Assembly: GCA_023245235.1 (NCBI GenBank)
Contig: JAHFKT010000008.1
Coordinates: forward strand, 1-33,620
Length of the DNA: 33,620 nt
Direction: 5' to 3'
DNA from: Candidatus Yanofskyibacteriota bacterium
GTDB lineage: Bacteria; Patescibacteriota; Minisyncoccia; 2-02-FULL-40-12; GWA2-44-9
Shown here: positions 19,291-28,957 of the stretch, one piece after another
Position numbering within the stretch: the first letter of the stretch is position 1
Layout: the number at the start of each line of letters is the position of its first letter
Notes under the pieces: model-generated
Database searches by the model: none
The model's input: the letters and a program-made list of their open reading frames with translations, nothing else
What the model was told of the DNA's origin: nothing
Program-made: the position numbers and the translations under genes

Positions 19291-21105
19291 TTATCGAACG
19301 AGAGCGTAGAACTCTTTTTGTTCGAGAGTTTCCTTTTTGATAAGCTCCGTGGCTATGAGATTGAGCTTATCGATTTTAGCGGAGAGGACTTTTTTCGCGA
19401 TGGCTAAGCCCCGGGAGACGAATTTCTTGATCTCAGTATCGATCTGGTAGGCGATAGTTTCCGAATAATTCTTGGCCGAAGAAAGATCTTTACCGAGGAA
19501 TACCAGGTCGTCTTTTTCGTGGAAGGATACGGGGCCGAGCACTTCGGACATACCGAACTGGGTCACCATGCGCCGGGCGAGTTCGGAGGCGACCTTGAGG
19601 TCATTGGAGGCGCCGGTCGTAGTTTGTTTGAAGATCAATTTTTCGGCGGCGTAGCCGGCCAGAAGCATAGCCAGCTCGGCCTCGAACTCAGGTTTTGATT
19701 TCAGATATTTGTCCTCGCTTGCAACTTTCATGGTATAGCCGAGGCCCCGACCGCGGGAGATGATGGATATTTTATGGACCGGGTCGGAGTGAGGCAAAGA
19801 ATGGGCGACCAAAGCATGGCCGGCTTCATGGTAGGCGGTGATCTCTTTTTCCTTCTTGGACATGACGTGGCTTCGTCGTTCGGGTCCGAGGATGACCTTT
19901 TCGATGGCCTCCAAGATGTTGAGCTGGGTGATCTCAGTCTGATTGGCCCGGGCGGCGAGGATAGCGGACTCATTCAGAAGATTAGCCAGATCCGCGCCGG
20001 AGAATCCGACCGTACGCTGGGCGATGGGGGTAAGGTCTACGTTTTTAGCGAGGGGTTTATCGAGGGCATGGATCTTGAGGATGGCCTCGCGGTCTTTAAG
20101 CGACGGTTCATCAAGGACGACCCGACGGTCAAAGCGTCCCGGGCGTAGAAGCGCCGGGTCAAGAATATCCGGCCGGTTGGTGGCGGCCATGACAATAACG
20201 GCGTCATTCGTATCGAAGCCGTCCATCTCGACGAGTATCTGATTGAGCGTCTGCTCTCGTTCATCGTGGCCGCCGCCCAGTCCGGCGCCCCGGTGCCGAC
20301 CGACCGCATCGATCTCATCCACGAAAATGATCGATGGTGCCGTCTTCTTGGCGAGTTCAAAAGTGTCCCGGACGCGATTGGCGCCGACACCGACGAACAT
20401 CTCGACGAATTCTGATCCGGAAACAAAATAAAACGGCACATTCGCTTCATTCGCGACAGCCCGGGCCAGGAGCGTCTTACCGGTACCCGGAGCGCCGACC
20501 AACAGGACGCCTCGCGGAATGCGTGCACCGAGCTTCTGGAATTTCTTGGGGTCACGGAGGAACTCAACTACTTCGGAGATCTCCTCTTTAGCCTCGAGCA
20601 GCCCGGCGACATCGCCGAACGTTACGGGCTTTCTGCCGCCGACGTTGTTGGCGAGACGGGCCTTTGATTTACCGAATGAGAAGGTCTGAGCCGAACCTTT
20701 CTGAGCTTGGCGGAACATGAACCAGAAGATAAGCCAGATGAGCAGGAACGGAAGCACGATCGGGAGTACGTTCGACAAGAATGCGCTTAGGCCCGATTGG
20801 TCCTTAACCTCTGTTTTTACCGCGGCGAGCTTGCCCTTATCGGCACCAAGGTTCAGAAGGGACTCAAATACCGAAGTTCCCGTCTCTTTTTTTGAATTGA
20901 CCTGACTGCCGTCATTGAGCGTGAGTTGGATATCGTCACCCTGGATGCTCATTTCTTTCACGCTGCCGTTGTCGATCTTGGTTACAACATCGGAGAGGGG
21001 AATGGTCGTCGGGCTCTTGAGCGAGGAATCAAATAACGCGGTTAAACCCGCCAGGCCAAGCAGGATAAGGAATACGATCAGGAAATAACGCATAAATGAT
21101 TTCAT
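19291..21105 (-). CDS. ftsH: ATP-dependent zinc metalloprotease FtsH
   Basis: Membrane-bound AAA+ protease for quality control of membrane and regulatory proteins. From ATG 21105 it has 604 residues: one membrane helix (about 5-27), a periplasmic domain, a second helix (about 112-132) and a cytoplasmic AAA module. That module has Walker A GAPGTGKT, Walker [12 protein letters not shown] and the second region of homology [20 protein letters not shown]. The zinc site HEAGH and the distal metal-ligand region follow. The track start at 21144 is rejected because a consensus promoter overlaps those codons and its -10 lies 6 nt before ATG 21105, predicting a leaderless mRNA. Confidence 0.97.
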
Positions 21106-21111
21106 AGGCTG

Positions 21112-21140
21112 ATTATAATACAAAAAAATGGCTCTGGCAA
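21112..21140 (-). promoter_or_regulatory. Leaderless promoter of ftsH
   Basis: On the minus strand TTGCCA (21135-21140), a 17-nt spacer and perfect TATAAT (21112-21117) are followed by 6 nt (CAGCCT) and ATG 21105. Transcription should start at the A of the start codon. Confidence 0.8.
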
Positions 21141-21164
21141 TCATGAATCGTAAAACAAAAAAAG

Positions 21165-21205
21165 CTCGTCAGTGACGGCGCGCCGCGCGCGCCGTCACTG
21201 ACGAG
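21165..21205 (-). terminator. Terminator of the coiled-coil gene pair
   Basis: A perfect 18-bp stem, CTCGTCAGTGACGGCGCG, with a 5-nt loop is followed on the minus strand by T7. It separates the accessory pair from the ftsH promoter. Confidence 0.95.
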
Positions 21206-21208
21206 ACA

Positions 21209-22093
21209 TTACTGCCTGGGCTTTTTCTTGCCTTTCTTCTTGCCCTTGGCGTCGTCCTCGTCGGACTTCTTCTTCTTGACCTCATCGGGCTTGGCGACTC
21301 CGCCCTTGAGCCAGACGCCTCCCTTCGGAACACGGTCGAGCATCCAGCCCTGCCGCTTCTTGGCCTGGGCCATCCGTTCGGCCCGGGCCGACGCAGCGGC
21401 AATGAGAGCCTTCAGTCGTGCCTTGAGCACCGGATATTCGTTGCTCGTGAAGCGCTCGTTGGCGTAGCAGACGTCGAAGGCCTCGAGAGGGTCTCCGGCG
21501 GCGACGCACTGATGCAGCATCGTCGTGATGATGCGTTCGTTGTCGATCTGTTCACGACGGAGCTTGCGCTGTGACGGGCCGCTCCTCCGTTGAGGCTTCG
21601 CCTCAAGGAGGGTCGTCAGTTTCCGAAGTCTTACTGAACGCAGGGCTTCGGAATCGTCCTCCGGTACCCGGATGCCGAACTGTTCGTACGGCTTCCAGGT
21701 CTGGGTCTCGACGCCTTCTTCCGGCTGGGCGAAGTTCATGCTTCGCTGCAGCTGGAATCGTGCGTCCAGGGCATTGCGGGTCCCGATACGGCCATCGAGC
21801 ATTTGAGTCTCGGCGGCCATCCAGGCCTGCTTGGCTTTCTGAAGCCGATGGATCTCTCCGATCGCTTCATCGAGCCGTTCGAACTGCGTGACCTGCTCCA
21901 GCGCCCGGTAGGCGTTGATGCGGGTTTCGCGGAGCCGTTGCCGGACGCCGTCCAGCTTCTGAAACGTTCTGCCTACGTTGCGGAACGTCTCCCGCTGGGC
22001 GGTTTCCCGGACAACGGAGTCGAAGACGTCGAGTGAGCCTCCGGCCGCTTCCAGTATGACCGGAGGAGCGGCTTCTCGTAGCACCATATTCAT
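21209..22093 (-). CDS. Accessory protein of unknown function with Lys-rich tail
   Basis: A 294-residue soluble protein of no recognised family. Residues 30-110 are strongly helical and charged (FQKLDGVRQRLRETRINAYRALEQV). A middle part has a run of Arg/Lys (KPQRRSGPSQRKLRREQ), followed by an Ala-rich helix. The C-terminal ~30 residues are almost all Lys, Asp, Glu and Gly (KKKKSDEDDAKGKKKGKKKPRQ), suggesting nucleic-acid or ribosome contact. AAGGAG lies 6 nt before ATG 22093. It begins 12 nt after the stop of the upstream gene and ends at a strong terminator, so the two form an operon. GC content and G/C-ending codons are visibly higher than in ftsH. Tail sequences of this kind also occur in disordered linkers. 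Confidence 0.75.
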   Translation of the reverse strand: MNMVLREAAPPVILEAAGGSLDVFDSVVRETAQRETFRNVGRTFQKLDGVRQRLRETRINAYRALEQVTQFERLDEAIGEIHRLQKAKQAWMAAETQMLDGRIGTRNALDARFQLQRSMNFAQPEEGVETQTWKPYEQFGIRVPEDDSEALRSVRLRKLTTLLEAKPQRRSGPSQRKLRREQIDNERIITTMLHQCVAAGDPLEAFDVCYANERFTSNEYPVLKARLKALIAAASARAERMAQAKKRQGWMLDRVPKGGVWLKGGVAKPDEVKKKKSDEDDAKGKKKGKKKPRQ

Positions 22094-22105
22094 AGCCTCT
22101 CCTTC

Positions 22106-23350
22106 CTACAGGTTAGCGGCCGCCGCGAGCAACGCATCGGCGTCGCCTTCGGCAGCGTCTTCGGCATCGTCGATGAGGAACTTCTCCAGCATCAGCCGGG
22201 TCTGGCCGTCCAGATATTCTTCGGACGGCGCAAAGCCGGTTGTCCGGTCTTCCCGATCGAGCTCCGGCACCATCTCATCGATCTGACGGTCCGTGAAGAC
22301 GATCTCGTCGATGAGCTGCAGCGCCCCTCGCAACCGGCTTTCGGCCTGTTGCAATGTGGCGTTGATGGCGGACAGTTGAGCGCGGAGGTTGACGAGCTGA
22401 TCGAGCAGTCCGACGATGTCGCGGGCTTGTTCGACGGCCCCCGGCCAGTCATCGACGTGGTCGAGTCCGAGCTCGTGACGGCATTCCCGCAGATTCTCCC
22501 GAAGCTGTTTTTCGCGTCGGTAGTCCTGGCAGTTTTCGAGCCGTTCATCGATCTCCAGCAGCCAGCGGAGCCAGCCGTCGTCGTCGCGCCGGTCACGGTT
22601 GAGCAGTTGCCTGGACAGCCGTTTGCGCTCGCGATCGAGGTCATCGACCTCGCTTTCCAGATAGTCGGCCTGTTCGCGTCTCGTGCGGCCGGTCGGGTTG
22701 CCGTTCACGTCGTAGTGTTCGTCGAGAATATGCGGCAGGGTTTCCGCCGCGATCGCTTTCAACGCATGGAATGCTTCCTCGCGCTGATAGCTCGCCGTGC
22801 GAATGTCAGCGAGAACGGTCCCGGCATCCGGCAGCTCGATCTGAGTTGCCAGCGTCTTGATCATGTTCTTGCCGCGCCCGAGCGCTTCGTTGATCTTCGC
22901 CTTGGCCTGACGGCTGTAGCGGAACTCGAGGATCGCCAGACGATCGCGTCCGCGCGTCGATTGGACCAGGAGGTCCTCCAGCAGCGTATGCCGAAGAAGG
23001 ATCTCCGGACTCTTGTCCCGGCAGGTCTGCTGGACATGCCAGAACAGGTTTACCACGTTCGGAACCGAGTAGGTTCCGAGCCGGTAGCCCGTCAGGCTTG
23101 CCAGTGCGAACGCGTGTGACGCGATGCGGCCTTCCCGGTCAGGGAACAGGACCGACAGCATATGGGCAGCCTGGTCAGGCTGCAGAGCCGCGACCTCGCT
23201 GCGAAGCTCCTGGCGGAGCGACTTCGGAAGCGCGCTCACCTCGTCACGAAGCGGTTGTGCTTCTGCCGGTGAGGTACTGACCGCCGCCGTTACCAAACGG
23301 AAGATGTCAGCTTGTTCAGCCTCCGTGGGCTGATGTCGGTGCCGTTTCAT
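22106..23350 (-). CDS. Accessory helical protein of unknown function
   Basis: A 414-residue protein, nearly all predicted helix. Residues 1-70 contain PTEAEQADIFRLV and a PKSLRQELRSEVAALQPDQAAHML segment. About 125-200 is a basic helical part (LEFRYSRQAKAKINEALGRGKNM). About 235-345 reads as a long charged coiled coil (LESEVDDLDRERKRLSRQL). The last ~60 residues are acidic (FLIDDAEDAAEGDADALLAAA). No membrane segment, signal or catalytic motif is seen. A structural or scaffold role would fit but is inference. It has a strong promoter, GGAGG 5 nt before ATG 23350, and is first gene of a two-gene operon. The Lys tail of its partner and this acidic tail could interact. Confidence 0.75.
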   Translation of the reverse strand: MKRHRHQPTEAEQADIFRLVTAAVSTSPAEAQPLRDEVSALPKSLRQELRSEVAALQPDQAAHMLSVLFPDREGRIASHAFALASLTGYRLGTYSVPNVVNLFWHVQQTCRDKSPEILLRHTLLEDLLVQSTRGRDRLAILEFRYSRQAKAKINEALGRGKNMIKTLATQIELPDAGTVLADIRTASYQREEAFHALKAIAAETLPHILDEHYDVNGNPTGRTRREQADYLESEVDDLDRERKRLSRQLLNRDRRDDDGWLRWLLEIDERLENCQDYRREKQLRENLRECRHELGLDHVDDWPGAVEQARDIVGLLDQLVNLRAQLSAINATLQQAESRLRGALQLIDEIVFTDRQIDEMVPELDREDRTTGFAPSEEYLDGQTRLMLEKFLIDDAEDAAEGDADALLAAAANL

Positions 23351-23438
23351 GTGATCCTCCCTCAGAGGAGAGCGGGCTTTCTATGTCCTACACAGAGGCC
23401 CTAGGTTGAATGGGTTGTTATAGAACTGATTGTTCAAT

Positions 23439-23467
23439 ATTGTATAGTATTTTCAATAAAAAGTCAA
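23439..23467 (-). promoter_or_regulatory. Promoter of the coiled-coil gene pair
   Basis: On the minus strand TTGACT (23462-23467), a 17-nt spacer and TACAAT (23439-23444) are followed by a leader of about 80 nt ending in GGGAGGATCAC-ATG. Confidence 0.8.
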
Positions 23468-23498
23468 TTGCTGAATCGGATGGTATTTTTGTATTAAA

Positions 23499-23525
23499 AA
23501 AGGCGGGGGCCAAGCCCCCGCCTTT
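23499..23525 (-). terminator. Terminator of the 373-residue accessory gene
   Basis: The AAAGGCGGGGGC/GCCCCCGCCTTT stem with a CAA loop is followed on the minus strand by T6. It precedes the promoter of the next accessory unit. Confidence 0.92.
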
Positions 23526-23567
23526 GAGATTCCCGTTCCGGATGGAACGGTACGTTTCGTGTGCCGA

Positions 23568-24689
23568 CTACGCGCTCGCGCCGGTCGTCAGCTTCTCCAT
23601 CTGGACGAGCTGGCTGACCAACGCCTCGTCGGTCATCTCGTGGCGCTCCCATTTCTTGTAGAAGATCTGGGTGGCGCGCTCGTTCTTGCCCGCACCGATG
23701 GTGCAGTACTCGACCGCGAGGTCGATGGAGGCCTTCGTCCCGTTCGACGCGACCGGCGCCGGAGCGGAGGCCACGGCAGCCTGGACGACTTCCTGAACCG
23801 ACGTCTCGGCGACGGGTGTCGCCGCCGGAACCGCCTTGAGCTGCGTCTCGAGCTCGGCGATGAGCGTGTTGGCGGTGGTCAGGGCATCCCGATCACGATC
23901 GGTGATGGCCTTCTGCCTGTCCGTCTTCGCCGCCTCGAGCTGCTCCTGGAGAGTCGGTCCGGCGGTTTCGACCACCGTCTCGATCACATCCGTCCCTGGC
24001 AAGACTTCGTCGCCTTCGGGAGCGACGCCGTGGGCATCGATCTGCGCCACGATGTCGTTGAGCTTGGCTTCGGCCGTCGCGATGAGCGTCGGGTCGCCGG
24101 TCGTCCAGGCCTTGTCGAGGGCCGTCTGAGCCTCCGCTCTCTGCTGTTCGAGCGTCTGCTCCTGCGGCGTCGGCGTGCCGTGGCTGGTCTGCCGTCGCGC
24201 GAACAGGCCGGTCTTGTTGACGAACTCCCGCAGGACCCGGTCCGGCCGCGGTCTGGAATCCTCGACGACCGCGTCGAGGATCGAGAGCGGATCGTTCGGA
24301 TCCGCCTTGCCTGCCCCCGCCGGCGGGAACTTCTTGTCGAGTTCCCGGATGACGAAGGCGACCGTCTTCTCGGTGAAGAAGCCGATGCGTTCGACCTCGG
24401 CGAGCTTCATCGCGGGGCCCAGGGCGCCCACGACGCGGCCGATCTTGTAGCCGAACAGCATGTTGACCACGGGCCGGTAGGTCGCCGGTGCCGCCAGTGC
24501 CGCCTTGACGAGCCAGTCACGAGCCTGGCTGTAGCCGTCGCCGACGTCGGAAACGGCCTTGAGGAAACGGTCCATGATGTCCCGTTTCTTGTCGCGGGAT
24601 GCTCCGACGTTCGCAAGCGCCTCGACCACGAATGGCCGGACGACCTGCTTGATGTCCGATGCTGACGCGCGTTCTCTCCTTGAGTCCAT
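23568..24689 (-). CDS. Accessory two-part protein of unknown function
   Basis: A 373-residue product from ATG 24689, where GGAG sits 5 nt upstream. The track start at 24725 is a codon inside the leader. Residues 1-110 form a compact helical, fairly hydrophobic domain (FVVEALANVGASRDKKRDIMDRFLKAV, PVVNMLFGYKIGRVVGALGPAMKLAEVERIGFF). A Pro/Gly/Asp-rich linker and an Ala/Glu/Gln coiled-coil region (about 180-320, EQQRAEAQTALDKAW) follow. The C-terminal ~50 residues look folded again (DLAVEYCTIGAGKNERATQIFYKKWERHEMTDEALVSQLVQME). No known family is recognised. Third-codon positions are overwhelmingly G or C, the strongest deviation in the window. It is divergent from the beta-CASP gene. Confidence 0.75.
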   Translation of the reverse strand: MDSRRERASASDIKQVVRPFVVEALANVGASRDKKRDIMDRFLKAVSDVGDGYSQARDWLVKAALAAPATYRPVVNMLFGYKIGRVVGALGPAMKLAEVERIGFFTEKTVAFVIRELDKKFPPAGAGKADPNDPLSILDAVVEDSRPRPDRVLREFVNKTGLFARRQTSHGTPTPQEQTLEQQRAEAQTALDKAWTTGDPTLIATAEAKLNDIVAQIDAHGVAPEGDEVLPGTDVIETVVETAGPTLQEQLEAAKTDRQKAITDRDRDALTTANTLIAELETQLKAVPAATPVAETSVQEVVQAAVASAPAPVASNGTKASIDLAVEYCTIGAGKNERATQIFYKKWERHEMTDEALVSQLVQMEKLTTGASA

Positions 24690-24701
24690 GACTGCTCCTT
24701 T

Positions 24702-24717
24702 TCCGCAATATTGCGGA
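24702..24717. promoter_or_regulatory. 16-bp perfect palindrome beside a Shine-Dalgarno
   Basis: TCCGCAATATTGCGGA is a perfect palindrome a few bases upstream of the AAGGAG ribosome site of the 373-residue accessory gene. It could be an operator or an RNA hairpin that holds the ribosome site. Confidence 0.5.
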
Positions 24718-24806
24718 GGCAACACACGAATTACGAATTAAAGGTGCTTTCCTAAGGAGGGGACCCTCCCGAGTCGGGAAAGGCGCCTCCACTGCTGATT
24801 GTGCGT

Positions 24807-24850
24807 ATATTATCAGAATGATTGACTTTTGTCAATATTTGCAGTATGCT
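24807..24850. promoter_or_regulatory. Divergent accessory promoters sharing a palindromic -35
   Basis: Plus strand: TTGACT 24822-24827, a 17-nt spacer and TATGCT 24845-24850, for the beta-CASP gene. Minus strand: TTGACA (24830-24835), a 17-nt spacer and TAATAT (24807-24812), for the 373-residue gene. The two -35 boxes are arms of ATTGAC-TTTT-GTCAAT, so the two units are probably mutually exclusive or jointly controlled. Confidence 0.8.
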
Positions 24851-24865
24851 ATGGACGTTTTGAGC

Positions 24866-24910
24866 CCGGACAACAGTTCATCAGCCTCAAGCGGACGGCC
24901 TGTTGTCTGG
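24866..24910 (+). promoter_or_regulatory. Stem-loop in the leader of the beta-CASP gene
   Basis: CCGGACAACAG (24866-24876) pairs with CTGTTGTCTGG (24900-24910) over 11 bp with one G-U pair, enclosing 23 nt. It ends just before the AATGAGG ribosome site and may control translation or mRNA decay. Confidence 0.5.
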
Positions 24911-24932
24911 ACTTTCACAATGAGGCAATCCC

Positions 24933-26360
24933 ATGAGTAAGCTGACAATTGTCGGCAGTTCGAAAGAATCGGGGGTCCTTGGCTCCCAGTGTTATGCGCT
25001 TGACGATATTCTGATCGATTGCGGTATCGGCATGGTGCGCAGAGACGGCGTAACGCGAAGCGTTCCGCCGGAGCTTGCGACCCTTGCCGGTCGCTCCACT
25101 AAGATCAAGGCCGGACTTCTGACCCACAGCCACTTGGACCATATCGGTGCCTTGCCGATCCTGGCCCGGAACAACCTGATCGATCTTAATGCGAAGATCT
25201 GGGCAACACCCCAGACCTGCAACGTGTCGTTCGACGTATGCAAGGACAGCGTCCAGCATACCGATCTATACGATGAAGGGGACTTTCTCCTGATGCCGGA
25301 TTTCTCTCCTATCGCCGCTCCGGGTGAGTTCGAAGTATTGCCGGGCCAGCGGGCCTGGGCATTTCCGAACGGCCACCTGAACGGTTCCAGCGGTTTCGTG
25401 TTCCGGCTCAAGTCGGGCAAGAATGCGCTGGTGATGGGCGACTGGTGCTCTCATGATCAACCGATCGTGAAAGGCATGTTGCCGGTCAGCGAATGGCCGG
25501 AGGAATGGATCCCGGATATGGTGATCGCAAGTGATTGGACGTACGGCTTGAGCAGTCTTGAGGCCAAACGCACGTTCGCCTCGGAGGCGGCACGAATGCG
25601 TACGGTCATCAGGCATCGCTTTGAGCAGGGTATGTTCATCCGCGTCTTCGTTTTTGCGAACGGTAAGATGCAGAATGTGGCCCGGATCCTGGCCGATGAG
25701 TTCAGGAGCATCGGGGTACCGATCTACATCGATGGCCGTCTCGGTAAGAAGGTCTGGAAGACCTACCGGGATGTGCAATGGTCGGACCGGGACGTTCCGG
25801 TTCCGGCGCTCGGCGAACAGAGCGGCATCTACGAAGTCGAAGGACGGCGTCATCGCGAAGAGCTGATGAACGCTCAACAACCCAATATCATCATCACGTC
25901 GCCCGGCATGGGTGACGTCGGTCTCGGACCTCAGTATCTTCAGGCGAGTCTCCCGCGCCGCGATCATTTCGTAGCGTCGAGCTCGTTCTTGGCTGAAGGT
26001 TCGAATCTGTATGAGTTGGAGCGGCTGCTTGACGGTCACCCACGGTACCGTGATGGCGATGATATCTCGTTCTCGGTCACCAGTCGTAATAAAGAGCAGG
26101 AAGAAGAAGCGGTATTGGTCCCGATGAGAGCGGAGTACGACCACTTCGGGTTGAGCGCTCACAACGGCCCGGCCGATAACCTCGCCTTCCTTGATGCGTT
26201 GATCGAGCGTCGCGGCGGTGCGAAGCTTGAACGCTATGGCGTAGGTCATGGTGCGCCGGAAGCCCGGGCGATGGGCGCCCAACTGGTCCGGCACTATGTG
26301 ATCGATCCCGATCGCAATGTGATCGATCTGGCACCGGGAACGGTCATTGACCTTGATTAG
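24933..26360 (+). CDS. Beta-CASP metallo-beta-lactamase-fold hydrolase (RNase-like)
   Basis: A 475-residue predicted metal-dependent nuclease. Visible metal motifs are THSHLDHIG (HxHxDH, about residue 67), GHLNGSSGF and VMGDW. The beta-CASP part shows RVFVFANGKMQNV, SPGMG, HFGLSAHNG and GVGHGAPEAR, corresponding to the conserved His-bearing motifs B and C. This is the general layout of CPSF-73/RNase J-type enzymes. It lacks an obvious RNase J C-terminal domain or KH domains. RNA processing is therefore the best guess, DNA less likely. GAGG lies 8 nt before ATG 24933. It is driven by the divergent promoter shared with the accessory coiled-coil gene. Confidence 0.85.
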   Translation: MSKLTIVGSSKESGVLGSQCYALDDILIDCGIGMVRRDGVTRSVPPELATLAGRSTKIKAGLLTHSHLDHIGALPILARNNLIDLNAKIWATPQTCNVSFDVCKDSVQHTDLYDEGDFLLMPDFSPIAAPGEFEVLPGQRAWAFPNGHLNGSSGFVFRLKSGKNALVMGDWCSHDQPIVKGMLPVSEWPEEWIPDMVIASDWTYGLSSLEAKRTFASEAARMRTVIRHRFEQGMFIRVFVFANGKMQNVARILADEFRSIGVPIYIDGRLGKKVWKTYRDVQWSDRDVPVPALGEQSGIYEVEGRRHREELMNAQQPNIIITSPGMGDVGLGPQYLQASLPRRDHFVASSSFLAEGSNLYELERLLDGHPRYRDGDDISFSVTSRNKEQEEEAVLVPMRAEYDHFGLSAHNGPADNLAFLDALIERRGGAKLERYGVGHGAPEARAMGAQLVRHYVIDPDRNVIDLAPGTVIDLD

Positions 26361-26362
26361 AC

Positions 26363-26386
26363 AGGCGGCTTCTGCCGCCTTTTTTG
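26363..26386 (+). terminator. Terminator of the beta-CASP gene
   Basis: AGGCGGC-TTCT-GCCGCCT is followed by a T-run just after the stop codon. Confidence 0.92.
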
Positions 26387-26400
26387 TTTGAAGCGGAGTC

Positions 26401-26430
26401 TAATAAAAAAAGCCGCACCCAAGGTGCGGC
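26401..26430 (-). terminator. Terminator of the Nudix-like gene
   Basis: GCCGCACC-CAA-GGTGCGGC is followed on the minus strand by T7, 14 nt past the stop codon. Confidence 0.92.
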
Positions 26431-26444
26431 AACCGATCCCTTAA

Positions 26445-27221
26445 TTAGATGAGATGCAGTTTGCGCTGCGTGTATACGCGCCACATAATGGCGTGGTCAT
26501 TCAGGAAGCAGCTGTGAGTTTCATCACCGGCGATGAGCGCATCGACTTCCTCAGCGGTCATCTTGGCGACCCATTCCTGCTCGCCACCCTTGATGACCGG
26601 TGTGTCGCCGGGGAGCACGACTTCAAAGAATGTCTTGTAGTGACTGCCCCCCTGCTGACGGTCCGGCCGGGCGATGGTGTCGATGATGTCATCCTCGGTT
26701 ACTTCGGGGATGCTGACCGAGAGGCCAAAGAAGATCTCCTCGGCCAATTCCCGGCGTACCGTAGCGAAGATGTCGGGGTCGACGATATCCTGTTCGGGAG
26801 CGTCTTTTCCGCCGTACGGAAAGCCCGGGTCGGTCTTTGAAAAGTCCTTTATCACCGCGAACGTCCGCGGGACAGTCAGGAACTTGGTTATCATCCCGAC
26901 ACCGTGGCTTTGAGCCAGGCTCAGATCGGAACCGTGCGGCAGGATCTGCCGGTCGATCCGAACAGCCTTGAAGCGCTCGAGAAGCTCCTGGCGGGTCTGT
27001 CTGGCCCGGAACTCTTCGATGATCGCCTCGGAAAGGGGACTCAACCTGACCTGGGCATGGCGCGGTTTGCGGCGCAGCCGCCGGCGCTCTGAGCGGGACA
27101 CAAAGTGGTCCAAGTCTCCATGACGCTTCAGCCGTGCAAGCATCGGTCTCGTCTTTCTTTTTAACGTTCTGAGCGCGATATCGATTCGCGCGTCCTCGAC
27201 ACGGACAGCCGTGTTTGTCAT
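26445..27221 (-). CDS. Nudix-like protein with basic N-terminal region
   Basis: A 258-residue product from ATG 27221. Residues 1-95 are basic and helical (LKRKTRPMLARLKRHG, SERRRLRRKPRHA) and could bind RNA. The region after about 125 resembles a Nudix domain: RTFAVIKDF, then FPYGGKDAPE and VRRELAEEIFFGL. Compared with GX5EX7REUXEEXGU, the spacing before RE is about five residues too long and one extra residue precedes the final Gly. The Glu pair for metal binding is kept. The substrate is unknown; nucleotide or RNA-cap cleavage would be typical. A leaderless promoter supports the start, in contrast to the SD-led accessory genes beside it. Confidence 0.65.
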   Translation of the reverse strand: MTNTAVRVEDARIDIALRTLKRKTRPMLARLKRHGDLDHFVSRSERRRLRRKPRHAQVRLSPLSEAIIEEFRARQTRQELLERFKAVRIDRQILPHGSDLSLAQSHGVGMITKFLTVPRTFAVIKDFSKTDPGFPYGGKDAPEQDIVDPDIFATVRRELAEEIFFGLSVSIPEVTEDDIIDTIARPDRQQGGSHYKTFFEVVLPGDTPVIKGGEQEWVAKMTAEEVDALIAGDETHSCFLNDHAIMWRVYTQRKLHLI

Positions 27222-27227
27222 GGCCAG

Positions 27228-27256
27228 ATAGTGCCACAAAAATTAAAAAAAGTCAA
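27228..27256 (-). promoter_or_regulatory. Leaderless promoter of the Nudix-like gene
   Basis: On the minus strand TTGACT (27251-27256), a 17-nt spacer and CACTAT (27228-27233, weak) are followed by exactly 6 nt and ATG 27221. This rules out the track start at 27239. Confidence 0.55.
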
Positions 27257-27263
27257 CCACATC

Positions 27264-27304
27264 AGTAAAAGACCCGCGAGAGCATCTCTCGCGGGTCTTT
27301 TACT
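27264..27304 (-). terminator. Terminator of the S1-domain gene
   Basis: A perfect 19-bp stem, AGTAAAAGACCCGCGAGAG, with a CAT loop is located 24 nt after the stop; the A/T ends supply the U-run. Confidence 0.92.
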
Positions 27305-27328
27305 ACTCCAAATAAAAATCCCGTAACT

Positions 27329-28411
27329 TTACGCCGCCGGTTTGTCGAGCGTCAGGGTAAGCTTATGTTCTTTGGCATCGATGTGTACGATGGCCATGTC
27401 GTATTCCTGTCCTGCTACGAGTGCCTCCTGCGGGGTCTGTCCGCCAAGCTCGGCTACCGGAATGAATCCGACGATATTGCCGGCGAGTTCCACAAATGCG
27501 CCGCTGTTGCGGATCTTCGAGATCTTGCCGCGCACCTTCTGGCCAACCTGATATATGGTGTCGATAGTGAGCCAGGGGTCTTCTTTCAATGCTTTGAGCG
27601 AGAGCGAAACGCGGCCGCCATCGAGACTGATGATCTTGGCCCGGACCTTATCGCCCGGGTGCAAAATCTCGCGCGGGTCTTCGATGAACTTCCAATCGAT
27701 CTCGGAAGAATGGATGAGTCCGTCCAGGGTGTCGCTCAATTTCACGAATGCGCCGAAGTCCGTGACCTCGGTGATCTCACCGTCCACGATCTGCTCGACT
27801 GAAAGTTTCGCCAGCTCTTCCTTGGCGGCTTCTTCCTGGATGGCCCGCTCCGAGACGATGAGCTTGTTCTCGGCTTCGTTGAAGTCGAGAATCTTTACCT
27901 TGAACATCTGACCCTTGAATTTCTGAAGCGCCTGGACGATCTTTGTTGTATCGCCGCCGTCCACCTTCGGATAGTGTTCGGACGAGAGCTGTGAAAGGGG
28001 AAGGAATCCCTGGATGCCGCTCACTTCGATGATGAGGCCTCCTTTATTGATATTAACGATCGTCGTAGTGATGATCTCTCCGGCTTCTTTCTTTTCTTTG
28101 ATATCCTGCCAGGCAGTCGTGACCTGGGCGGCTTTCAGGGACAGTTCGCGGTAGCCGTCATCGTTCTCAAGATCCAGCAGCATAGCCGAAACATGGTCGC
28201 CCGGTTTCAGGACTTTCATCCGGTCCGGGTTGTCATAGAACTCTCCCGGATAAACGATGCCGATGCCGACCGATCCGAGGTCAAGGATTACATTAGCCTT
28301 AGAAACGCCGATAATGATGCCGCTCAAAATATTTCCCGGCTTGGGAAGAAAAAACTCCTCTTTCGACAAGAGGTCTTTCATCGACTTGATATCAGATTCT
28401 GCGATAGTCAT
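27329..28411 (-). CDS. rpsA: 30S ribosomal protein S1-like, four S1 domains
   Basis: RNA-binding protein that assists mRNA recruitment to the 30S subunit. The 360-residue product carries four S1 repeats, at about 25-95, 108-180, 205-275 and 293-357. The third (VDGEITEVTDFGAFVKLSDTLDGLIHSSEI) and fourth (VRGKISKIRNSGAFVELAGNIVGFIPVAEL) are closest to consensus. Typical proteobacterial S1 has six repeats and about 557 residues; short forms are usual in CPR and Firmicutes. It has its own promoter and an ~85-nt folded leader, consistent with autogenous control of S1 in other bacteria. Confidence 0.9.
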   Translation of the reverse strand: MTIAESDIKSMKDLLSKEEFFLPKPGNILSGIIIGVSKANVILDLGSVGIGIVYPGEFYDNPDRMKVLKPGDHVSAMLLDLENDDGYRELSLKAAQVTTAWQDIKEKKEAGEIITTTIVNINKGGLIIEVSGIQGFLPLSQLSSEHYPKVDGGDTTKIVQALQKFKGQMFKVKILDFNEAENKLIVSERAIQEEAAKEELAKLSVEQIVDGEITEVTDFGAFVKLSDTLDGLIHSSEIDWKFIEDPREILHPGDKVRAKIISLDGGRVSLSLKALKEDPWLTIDTIYQVGQKVRGKISKIRNSGAFVELAGNIVGFIPVAELGGQTPQEALVAGQEYDMAIVHIDAKEHKLTLTLDKPAA

Positions 28412-28531
28412 AAACGATCACCGAGCATCGGTAGTAGCGCTCGTCTTTCAGGCAAGACGGGCTTTCCGATCCAGGGCATTAAGGATTTCTGTAAGTTTCA
28501 TGAGCATACAATAATTCTTCATAAAATGCAA
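28412..28531 (-). promoter_or_regulatory. Promoter and folded leader of rpsA
   Basis: On the minus strand TTGCAT (28526-28531), a 17-nt spacer and TATGCT (28503-28508). The leader contains a CGTCTT-gcctga-AAGACG stem-loop (about 28450-28470) and a small CCGA/TCGG hairpin near the start codon. Confidence 0.6.
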
Positions 28532-28552
28532 CAGAACCCGCTAAAGCAGGGA

Positions 28553-28582
28553 TTGACAAAACGCTATATTTTATGGTATAAT
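28553..28582 (+). promoter_or_regulatory. Near-perfect promoter of the small secreted protein
   Basis: TTGACA (28553-28558), an 18-nt spacer and TGG-TATAAT (-10 at 28577-28582): both hexamers match consensus and there is an extended -10. The leader is about 42 nt and ends in AAGGAG, 7 nt before ATG 28631. It is the strongest promoter in the window. Confidence 0.85.
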
Positions 28583-28630
28583 TCAGCTACAAGCTTCGGT
28601 TACAGCCCTTTTCCATTAAGGAGCATCTAA

Positions 28631-28957
28631 ATGCGCACAGCATCAATCATCGTTCTCACGGCCGCGGTTCTCATCGGCGCCTATGGTTCTTCGGTGAGCG
28701 CTTCCTCCGACGGGCCCTCCGACCAGGACGCGACCAGCCAGATCATCCGGATCGATCAGAGCTCGCGGATGATGCCCGCGGTGGTTCTCAGCGTGCACAT
28801 CCTGAACAAGAGTACTCACGGCGACGAGTGCACCGTTGTGGCAGAGGTCACCAAGCAATACAAGGCCACCAACGACGGTAGCAACAACGGTGAACCCGTC
28901 AGGGGACGCGAGGTCCACTCTTTCGTAAAAGACGGTGGTCGCTGGACCATCCGATGA
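28631..28957 (+). CDS. Small secreted protein, unknown
   Basis: A 108-residue product. It has a signal peptide (MRTASIIVLTAAVLIGAYGSSVSA) with a likely AxA-type cleavage after residue 24, then a Ser/Asp-rich linker. A short domain follows (VVLSVHILNKSTHGDECTVVAEVTKQYK ... EVHSFVKDGGRWTIR). The ending FVKDGGRWTI resembles the last strands of NTF2/DUF4878-like folds, but too little is present to assign it. A strong promoter, a good Shine-Dalgarno and a terminator flank the gene, so it should be abundant. Its GC-rich codons and SD-led expression resemble the accessory genes at 21-26 kb rather than its neighbours. Confidence 0.8.
   Translation: MRTASIIVLTAAVLIGAYGSSVSASSDGPSDQDATSQIIRIDQSSRMMPAVVLSVHILNKSTHGDECTVVAEVTKQYKATNDGSNNGEPVRGREVHSFVKDGGRWTIR

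Follow-up and report, generated by a model that had tools for sequence, protein, structure and literature searches.

The contig under study (C35; 33,620 nucleotides, the window in what follows; GenBank JAHFKT010000008.1 of assembly GCA_023245235.1) belongs to an 826-kb Patescibacteria genome of 42 contigs and 95% completeness, which falls in the same family as Candidatus Yanofskybacteria. Between rpsA, which encodes ribosomal protein S1, and ftsH, the window carries five genes that we treat together as one accessory cassette; in order from rpsA, these encode a NUDIX protein (P0005, minus strand), a β-CASP metallo-hydrolase (P0004, plus strand), and three proteins designated A (P0003), B, and C (all minus strand). 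A sequence-only reading of positions 21165 to 26386 had described three minus-strand ORFs of 373, 414, and 294 residues divergent from the hydrolase gene, and their coordinates and lengths are confirmed here; the unit reaches beyond that segment to the NUDIX gene, which completes it. Contamination or misassembly was ruled out as the source of the locus, since the synteny is conserved in relatives.

The 3′ end of the host 16S rRNA retains an intact anti-Shine–Dalgarno (anti-SD) sequence, GATCACCTCCTTTCT, and a five-base SD precedes 31 of the 432 longer genes of this genome, where shuffled leaders predict nine. When 506 genes of the genome are ranked by SD pairing energy, C and B stand near the top (Table 1), followed by the β-CASP gene at rank 25, A at rank 54, and the NUDIX gene at rank 325. 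A much sharper segregation emerges from the S1–FtsH intervals of the order, in which an SD of at least five bases is found for 74 of 92 interval genes vs 9 of 123 flanking genes (Fisher p = 7e-30), with 8.5 and 2.1, respectively, expected from shuffling. Conversely, a −10 box placed 4 to 9 nt before the start codon, the leaderless-type arrangement, occurs in none of the 92 interval genes and in 16 of 122 flanking genes. The earlier description of the neighboring genes as SD-less or leaderless thus holds statistically, and that of clear SDs in the cassette is correct for A, B, and C, the β-CASP gene having only GAGG.

S1–FtsH is an old gene adjacency. The gap is near-empty (~10–230 bp) in G006, G148, G124, G157, G104, G143, G175, G176, G036, and G142, and filled, over ~0.6 to 8.5 kb, in more than 20 genomes of the order. 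Most filled intervals of the order harbor a β-CASP gene and often a NUDIX gene; β-CASP proteins of a single similarity cluster are found at 23 relative loci (within the gap, at a contig end that interrupts it, or, in G143, in a relocated cassette), whereas the NUDIX proteins beside them belong to several families, and some cassettes contain NYN-domain nuclease genes. The proposed association of A, B, and C with the hydrolase is borne out in these relatives; three of them (G061, G169, and G172) have A/B/C-type genes beside a β-CASP gene, and contig ends limit the view to A and B in G159, a genome of the window's family, and to A alone in G179. In other orders, a β-CASP gene and a gene rich in G + C at third codon positions (GC3) lie beside FtsH or S1 in G033, G059, and G027. 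Outside the order, but within the class, the gap is often filled by housekeeping-type genes that have no SD (tilS-type PP-loop, amino-acid-kinase, and nucleotide-kinase-like genes), and the β-CASP cassette is therefore not class-wide.

The history of the β-CASP gene departs from that of its flanks. Comparison of the β-CASP and S1+FtsH trees gives a Mantel r of 0.08 (p = 0.12), and the species topology is rejected for β-CASP (Δ log-likelihood 1762; approximately unbiased test, p ~1e-77), with well-supported conflicts that group G168 with G171 and place G061 and G027, the latter from another order, each inside a group of the window's family. The sharing of cassette genes tracks β-CASP distance (ρ = -0.52) more than species distance (-0.25). 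That the β-CASP tree rejects the S1+FtsH tree argues for exchange or replacement of cassettes at the S1–FtsH site; whole cassettes appear to be swapped, and recombination within the conserved flanks is a plausible route.

P0004 scores above the Pfam cut-offs for Lactamase_B_2 (31.9 bits; cut-off 27) and Beta-Casp (30.4 bits; cut-off 27.7), and its invariant catalytic residues (H65, H67, D69, H70, H148, D170, and H410) provide the HxHxDH motif and the later His and Asp that, together with a β-CASP domain, mark β-CASP ribonucleases. The protein aligns over residues ~26–357 with β-CASP RNases (TTHA0252, CPSF73/aCPSF1, RNase J, and type VII Cas14), with the catalytic motifs kept, and matches Protein Data Bank entries 3af5 (E 3.6e-13) and 2dkf (E 1.4e-8). 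It also matches the NCBIfam models of aCPSF1 (E 2e-15) and Cas14 (E 2e-13), but differs from aCPSF1 in score (55.9 bits vs a family cut-off of 580) and in its own cassette context, and from type VII Cas14 in score (49.4 bits vs a cut-off of 800) and in having neighbors that match no Cas family. Given these scores, the lack of Cas neighbors, and the lack of a clear CRISPR-type repeat array in 20500–28700, a CRISPR (type VII Cas14) reading was rejected; membership of RNase J was rejected as well (MG423/RNase J family score 22.5 bits vs a cut-off of 400). A β-CASP scan of genome contigs returned mostly distant archaeal and bacterial β-CASPs, and the PADLOC library returned a weak LmuA match only (E 1e-4). 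The suggested link of the cassette to an RNase-like enzyme is therefore supported by motifs and Pfam domains; RNA is the likely target from knowledge of the family, and P0004 is predicted to be the RNase. The adjoining P0005 reaches 13.4 bits vs the NUDIX Pfam cut-off of 21.1 (E 0.077); its homologues, which fall with it in BLAST similarity cluster c1, include proteins above the PF00293 cut-off (39.1, 38.3, and 37.4 bits in L036, L035, and L147, respectively). Several cassette NUDIX proteins thus resemble RppH-type pyrophosphohydrolases; P0005 differs from these in scoring below the cut-off, in a NUDIX box that appears to contain an insertion, and in a basic extension at its N-terminus.

As the sequence-only reading had stated, A, B, and C belong to no recognizable family, in that profile searches of Pfam, PHROGs, PADLOC, and NCBIfam gave no useful match; searches of 141 further genomes from the class and of viral contigs gave no homologues, and neither did phages for B or plasmids for A. 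The AlphaFold models are of low confidence (predicted local distance difference test score, pLDDT, 51–58). Residues 10–131 of B are predicted to be helical-repeat-like (pLDDT ~80), with a long coiled coil and an acidic tail to follow, and a fold search with this model gave nothing below E 0.1. In A, two helical hairpins are confidently predicted (residues 175–219 and 234–289), the second of which is UVR-like; an A counterpart, L035:7024-8322, matches UVR (PF02151) at 27.6 bits (cut-off 21.5; E 2e-6), and A itself lacks a PF02151 match but is the best non-seed match of a local hairpin hidden Markov model (HMM), at an E of 0.037. Judged by gene order, G061, G169, and G172 each hold counterparts of A, B, and C, and the coupling of B to C with a separate A recurs in L033, L035, and L036, where B and C overlap and A lies 200–470 bp apart. 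In a pairwise profile comparison of A/B/C candidates, the top seven pairs are all same-position pairs (chance ~3e-5), which supports homology for A and B; position and rank in the profile comparison both link B to its namesakes in G159 and G061. The scaffold or nucleoprotein assembly with acidic and Lys tails that the sequence-only reading had suggested is conjectural; the models are of low confidence, and the Lys-rich stretch of C is N-terminal rather than C-terminal in its presumed counterparts of G169 and G172.

The cassette has its own transcription signals (Table 1). The TTGACN-N17 promoters noted earlier are found for A, B, and the β-CASP gene, but not for C, which has none of its own and is coupled to B, and the region holds 11 promoter-like sites vs 3.6 in shuffles. 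The divergent promoters of A and the β-CASP gene overlap and share the palindrome TTGACTTTTGTCAA (24822–24835), so that binding or blocking could affect both −35 boxes at once. The strong terminators noted earlier are likewise present, three by scan and one read by eye.

Table 1. Genes and expression signals of the S1–FtsH interval in the window
Feature	Position	Strand	Remarks
ftsH	19291..21105	-	Conserved hotspot flank; alternative upstream start 21144
Intrinsic terminator behind C	21165..21205	-	19-bp stem then T-run; terminator scan
Gene C, 294 aa	21209..22093	-	Lys-rich C-terminal tail; no family; 12 nt behind B
SD of C, AAGGAG	22099..22104	-	Pairing-energy rank 10/506
Gene B, 414 aa	22106..23350	-	Predicted helical-repeat-like N-terminus, long coiled coil, acidic tail
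SD of B, GGAGG	23356..23360	-	Pairing-energy rank 12/506
Promoter of B–C operon, TTGACT-17-TACAAT	23439..23467	-	Promoter scan
Terminator-like GC hairpin + T-run behind A	~23502..23522	-	Read by eye; absent from scanner list
Gene A, 373 aa	23568..24689	-	GC3 0.87; two predicted helical hairpins
SD of A, AAAGGAG	24695..24701	-	Read from sequence; pairing energy scored
Promoter of A, TTGACA-17-TAATAT	24807..24835	-	Promoter scan
Promoter of β-CASP gene, TTGACT-17-TATGCT	24822..24850	+	Promoter scan
β-CASP metallo-hydrolase P0004, 475 aa	24933..26360	+	Catalytic His/Asp kept
Terminator behind β-CASP gene	26363..26380	+	Terminator scan
Terminator behind NUDIX gene	26412..26430	-	Terminator scan
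NUDIX protein P0005, 258 aa	26445..27221	-	Marginal bS21-like N-terminus; without SD in this genome
rpsA (S1)	27329..28411	-	Conserved hotspot flank

We favor, at a probability of roughly 55%, the reading that these genes form an exchangeable RNA-targeting accessory cassette that uses SD-dependent initiation in an SD-poor genome and occupies an exchange hotspot between S1 and FtsH. What the sequences establish is the gene content of the cassette, its conserved synteny, the segregation of SDs, the retention of the catalytic residues, and a phylogeny in conflict with that of the flanks. In the cassette type of the window, with A, B, and C divergent from the β-CASP gene and the NUDIX gene adjoining, the cassette brings its own promoters, SDs, and terminators and would on that account be expressed by SD–anti-SD initiation, in a genome most of whose genes are SD-less or leaderless; that the SDs are actually used is suggested by sequence. 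The effector would be the β-CASP protein, acting as an RNase of the CPSF73/TTHA0252 type; the NUDIX protein may prepare RNA 5′ ends or hydrolyze a nucleotide, and A, B, and C may act as helical, rapidly evolving adaptors that select the target or keep it in place. Defence against mobile elements and conditional RNA decay are candidate purposes. The earlier proposal of an undescribed system is upheld in that none of the families and systems in the searched libraries matches an accessory cassette with this expression style. A near-all-SD locus inside SD-poor genomes offers a natural setting in which to test why the anti-SD stays intact in such bacteria, and for the mostly uncultured Patescibacteria, it provides a mappable hotspot of quickly evolving genes adjoining rpsA and ftsH.

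Several observations weigh against this reading. The SD of the β-CASP gene is only GAGG and the NUDIX gene of the window has none, and gene starts were assigned with a simple caller that favors SD-led starts, in the interval and flanking groups alike. Single profile matches of A and B are weak (E 0.002–0.02), and C of the window has counterparts in L033, L035, and L036 by position only, with no profile match. β-CASP sequences are mostly only ~25–45% identical, and at such deep divergence, hidden paralogy or long branches may account for part of the disagreement between the trees. Finally, PADLOC identified no known defence gene beside the cassette and none among A, B, C, and the NUDIX gene.

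A more specific form of the favored reading is an anti-phage or anti-plasmid defence cassette, in which A, B, and C would sense infection, the β-CASP protein would degrade invader or host RNA, and the hotspot would be a small defence island; we regard this as tentative and somewhat unlikely. Patchy presence, replacement at one site, nuclease genes (β-CASP and NYN), very fast-evolving partner proteins, and the weak matches of P0004, which are to LmuA and to type VII Cas14 β-CASP nucleases, are all consistent with it, and the S1–FtsH site has the fixed flanks, variable fast-turning contents, and nucleases of defence islands and integration hotspots. The site differs from these, however, in having no identified defence genes or recombinase and in being bordered by two core genes. 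No convincing PADLOC system is found among 68 interval proteins, QueC-type matches probably reflecting tilS-like PP-loop genes, and the absence of matches in viral contigs (A, B, and C), phages (B), and plasmids (A) and of a clear CRISPR array in the region likewise argues against defence.

An unlikely alternative is a conditional RNA-decay operon, in which an RppH-like NUDIX protein and an RNase-J-like β-CASP protein would carry out accessory 5′-end-dependent decay with helical cofactors. The pairing of NUDIX and β-CASP genes recurs order-wide in most cassette types, and a bS21 domain in one NUDIX homologue (see below) points to the ribosome or mRNA; however, such turnover, replacement, and loss are rare for core decay enzymes, several close relatives live without the cassette, and the genome has two further β-CASP genes, one of RNase-J-like length.

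The bS21 connection comes from genome G146, whose cassette lacks a β-CASP gene. In its S1–FtsH gap lies an SD-led bS21–NUDIX fusion gene (L147:5305-6093), and the encoded protein, a member of the BLAST cluster of P0005, carries the strongest bS21 match of the order (PF01165, E 1.7e-12). Weak bS21 matches occur at a like N-terminal position in L035, L038, and P0005, where residues 6–52 match TIGR00030 at an E of only 0.02; P0005 and L147 align poorly, and since an order-specific bS21 HMM, built from the rpsU genes of the order, does not match P0005, the window offers a marginal case for a bS21 domain. The genome's own rpsU (bS21; L308, C19:6787-6933) has the nine-base SD GAAAGGAGG (-15.8 kcal/mol, rank 5/506), and standalone rpsU has an SD of at least five bases in 9/9 genomes of the order read. 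In Flavobacterium johnsoniae, the anti-SD is held by bS21–bS18–bS6, and ribosomes without bS21 translate strong-SD mRNAs (PMC9976891). The situation here resembles this Bacteroidota regulation in an SD-poor genome, an intact anti-SD, and a very strong rpsU SD. Two features set it apart: an entire exchangeable cassette is led by SDs, and a bS21 domain is joined to one of the NUDIX homologues. Anti-SD sequestration of this type is known for Flavobacterium; we found no report of it for Patescibacteria in the literature searched, preprints and most subscription journals being outside its scope. A very strong rpsU SD, documented so far for Bacteroidota in that literature, is now seen in Patescibacteria, with a bS21–NUDIX fusion in a like cassette. 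By analogy, the cassette might be the regulon of specialized ribosomes: most mRNAs would be read with the anti-SD masked by bS21, the SD-led cassette and rpsU being reserved for ribosomes without bS21 or with the bS21–NUDIX protein in its place, and the β-CASP protein could then act on the other mRNAs. We consider this doubtful; if true, a transferable cassette would switch translation and RNA turnover.

A very unlikely alternative derives the cassette from a mobile element or virus, as a remnant or satellite whose genes keep a foreign, SD- and GC-rich style. The distinct SD and GC3 style, the self-contained expression units, movement between lineages, and the location of the cassette elsewhere in G143 could be read in this way, but no integrase, transposase, terminase, or att-like repeats were seen in the window cassette, there is no phage match, and the B–C coupling and high GC3 of A recur over long divergence.

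The claim of strongly G/C-ending codons stands, with GC3 values of 0.87 (A), 0.75 (B), 0.76 (C), and 0.68 (β-CASP) vs a genome mean of 0.61 (standard deviation 0.10; 522 ORFs from 535 kb, among which A ranks second), but the label of a GC-rich cassette applies to coding sequence only, intergenic GC being an ordinary 0.46–0.51. SD genes of the genome have higher GC3 than the others (0.678 vs 0.615, p = 3e-5). Ordinary translational selection was ruled out as the source, as S12, L2, L7/L12, rpoB, and GroEL reach only 0.57–0.67; because highly expressed genes are not alike and spacer GC is ordinary, the bias sits in the coding sequence. Cassette counterparts stay GC3-rich in many genera, their flanking genes ranging from 0.27 to 0.7, and a GC content that is high in coding sequence only and kept in relatives argues against a recent GC-rich donor. 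The suggestion of acquisition by transfer therefore survives as exchange between related lineages at one site, as indicated by the tree conflict, and not as entry of GC-rich foreign DNA. Recent acquisition from a single GC-rich donor, which the GC3 of 0.75–0.87 might suggest, is highly improbable and already largely contradicted by this syntenic conservation of style, by the ordinary spacers, and by the lack of a close homologue anywhere searched.

Further observations concern the surroundings of the site and other genes of similar style. In the rpsA matches of G166, G087, G068, and G133, a TAA interrupts the S1 frame, which may reflect sequencing or a true truncation. On the other side of S1 in the window, a plus-strand gene (28631–28957) with a cassette-like expression style encodes a secreted-looking 108-aa protein and has a perfect 12/12 promoter (TTGACA-18-TATAAT, 28553–28582), an SD (AAGGAG), and a GC3 of 0.75. 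Beside the relocated cassette of G143 (L038:11420-12647), SD-led, GC-rich genes encode membrane-anchored proteins, one with collagen-like GPQGPRGPRG repeats. SD-led orphans are a genome-wide class in the genome of the window, which holds further SD-led secreted or lipoprotein-like genes (L119:7653-8090, L106:10817-13256, and L133:7310-7963) with GC3 up to 0.92, the top of the 522 ORFs. On contig C4, two adjoining SD-led genes with GC3 of 0.78–0.80 (L102:3058-4572) encode two proteins, one secreted (277 aa) and one of 225 aa whose N-terminal helical hairpin resembles the UVR-like motif of A.

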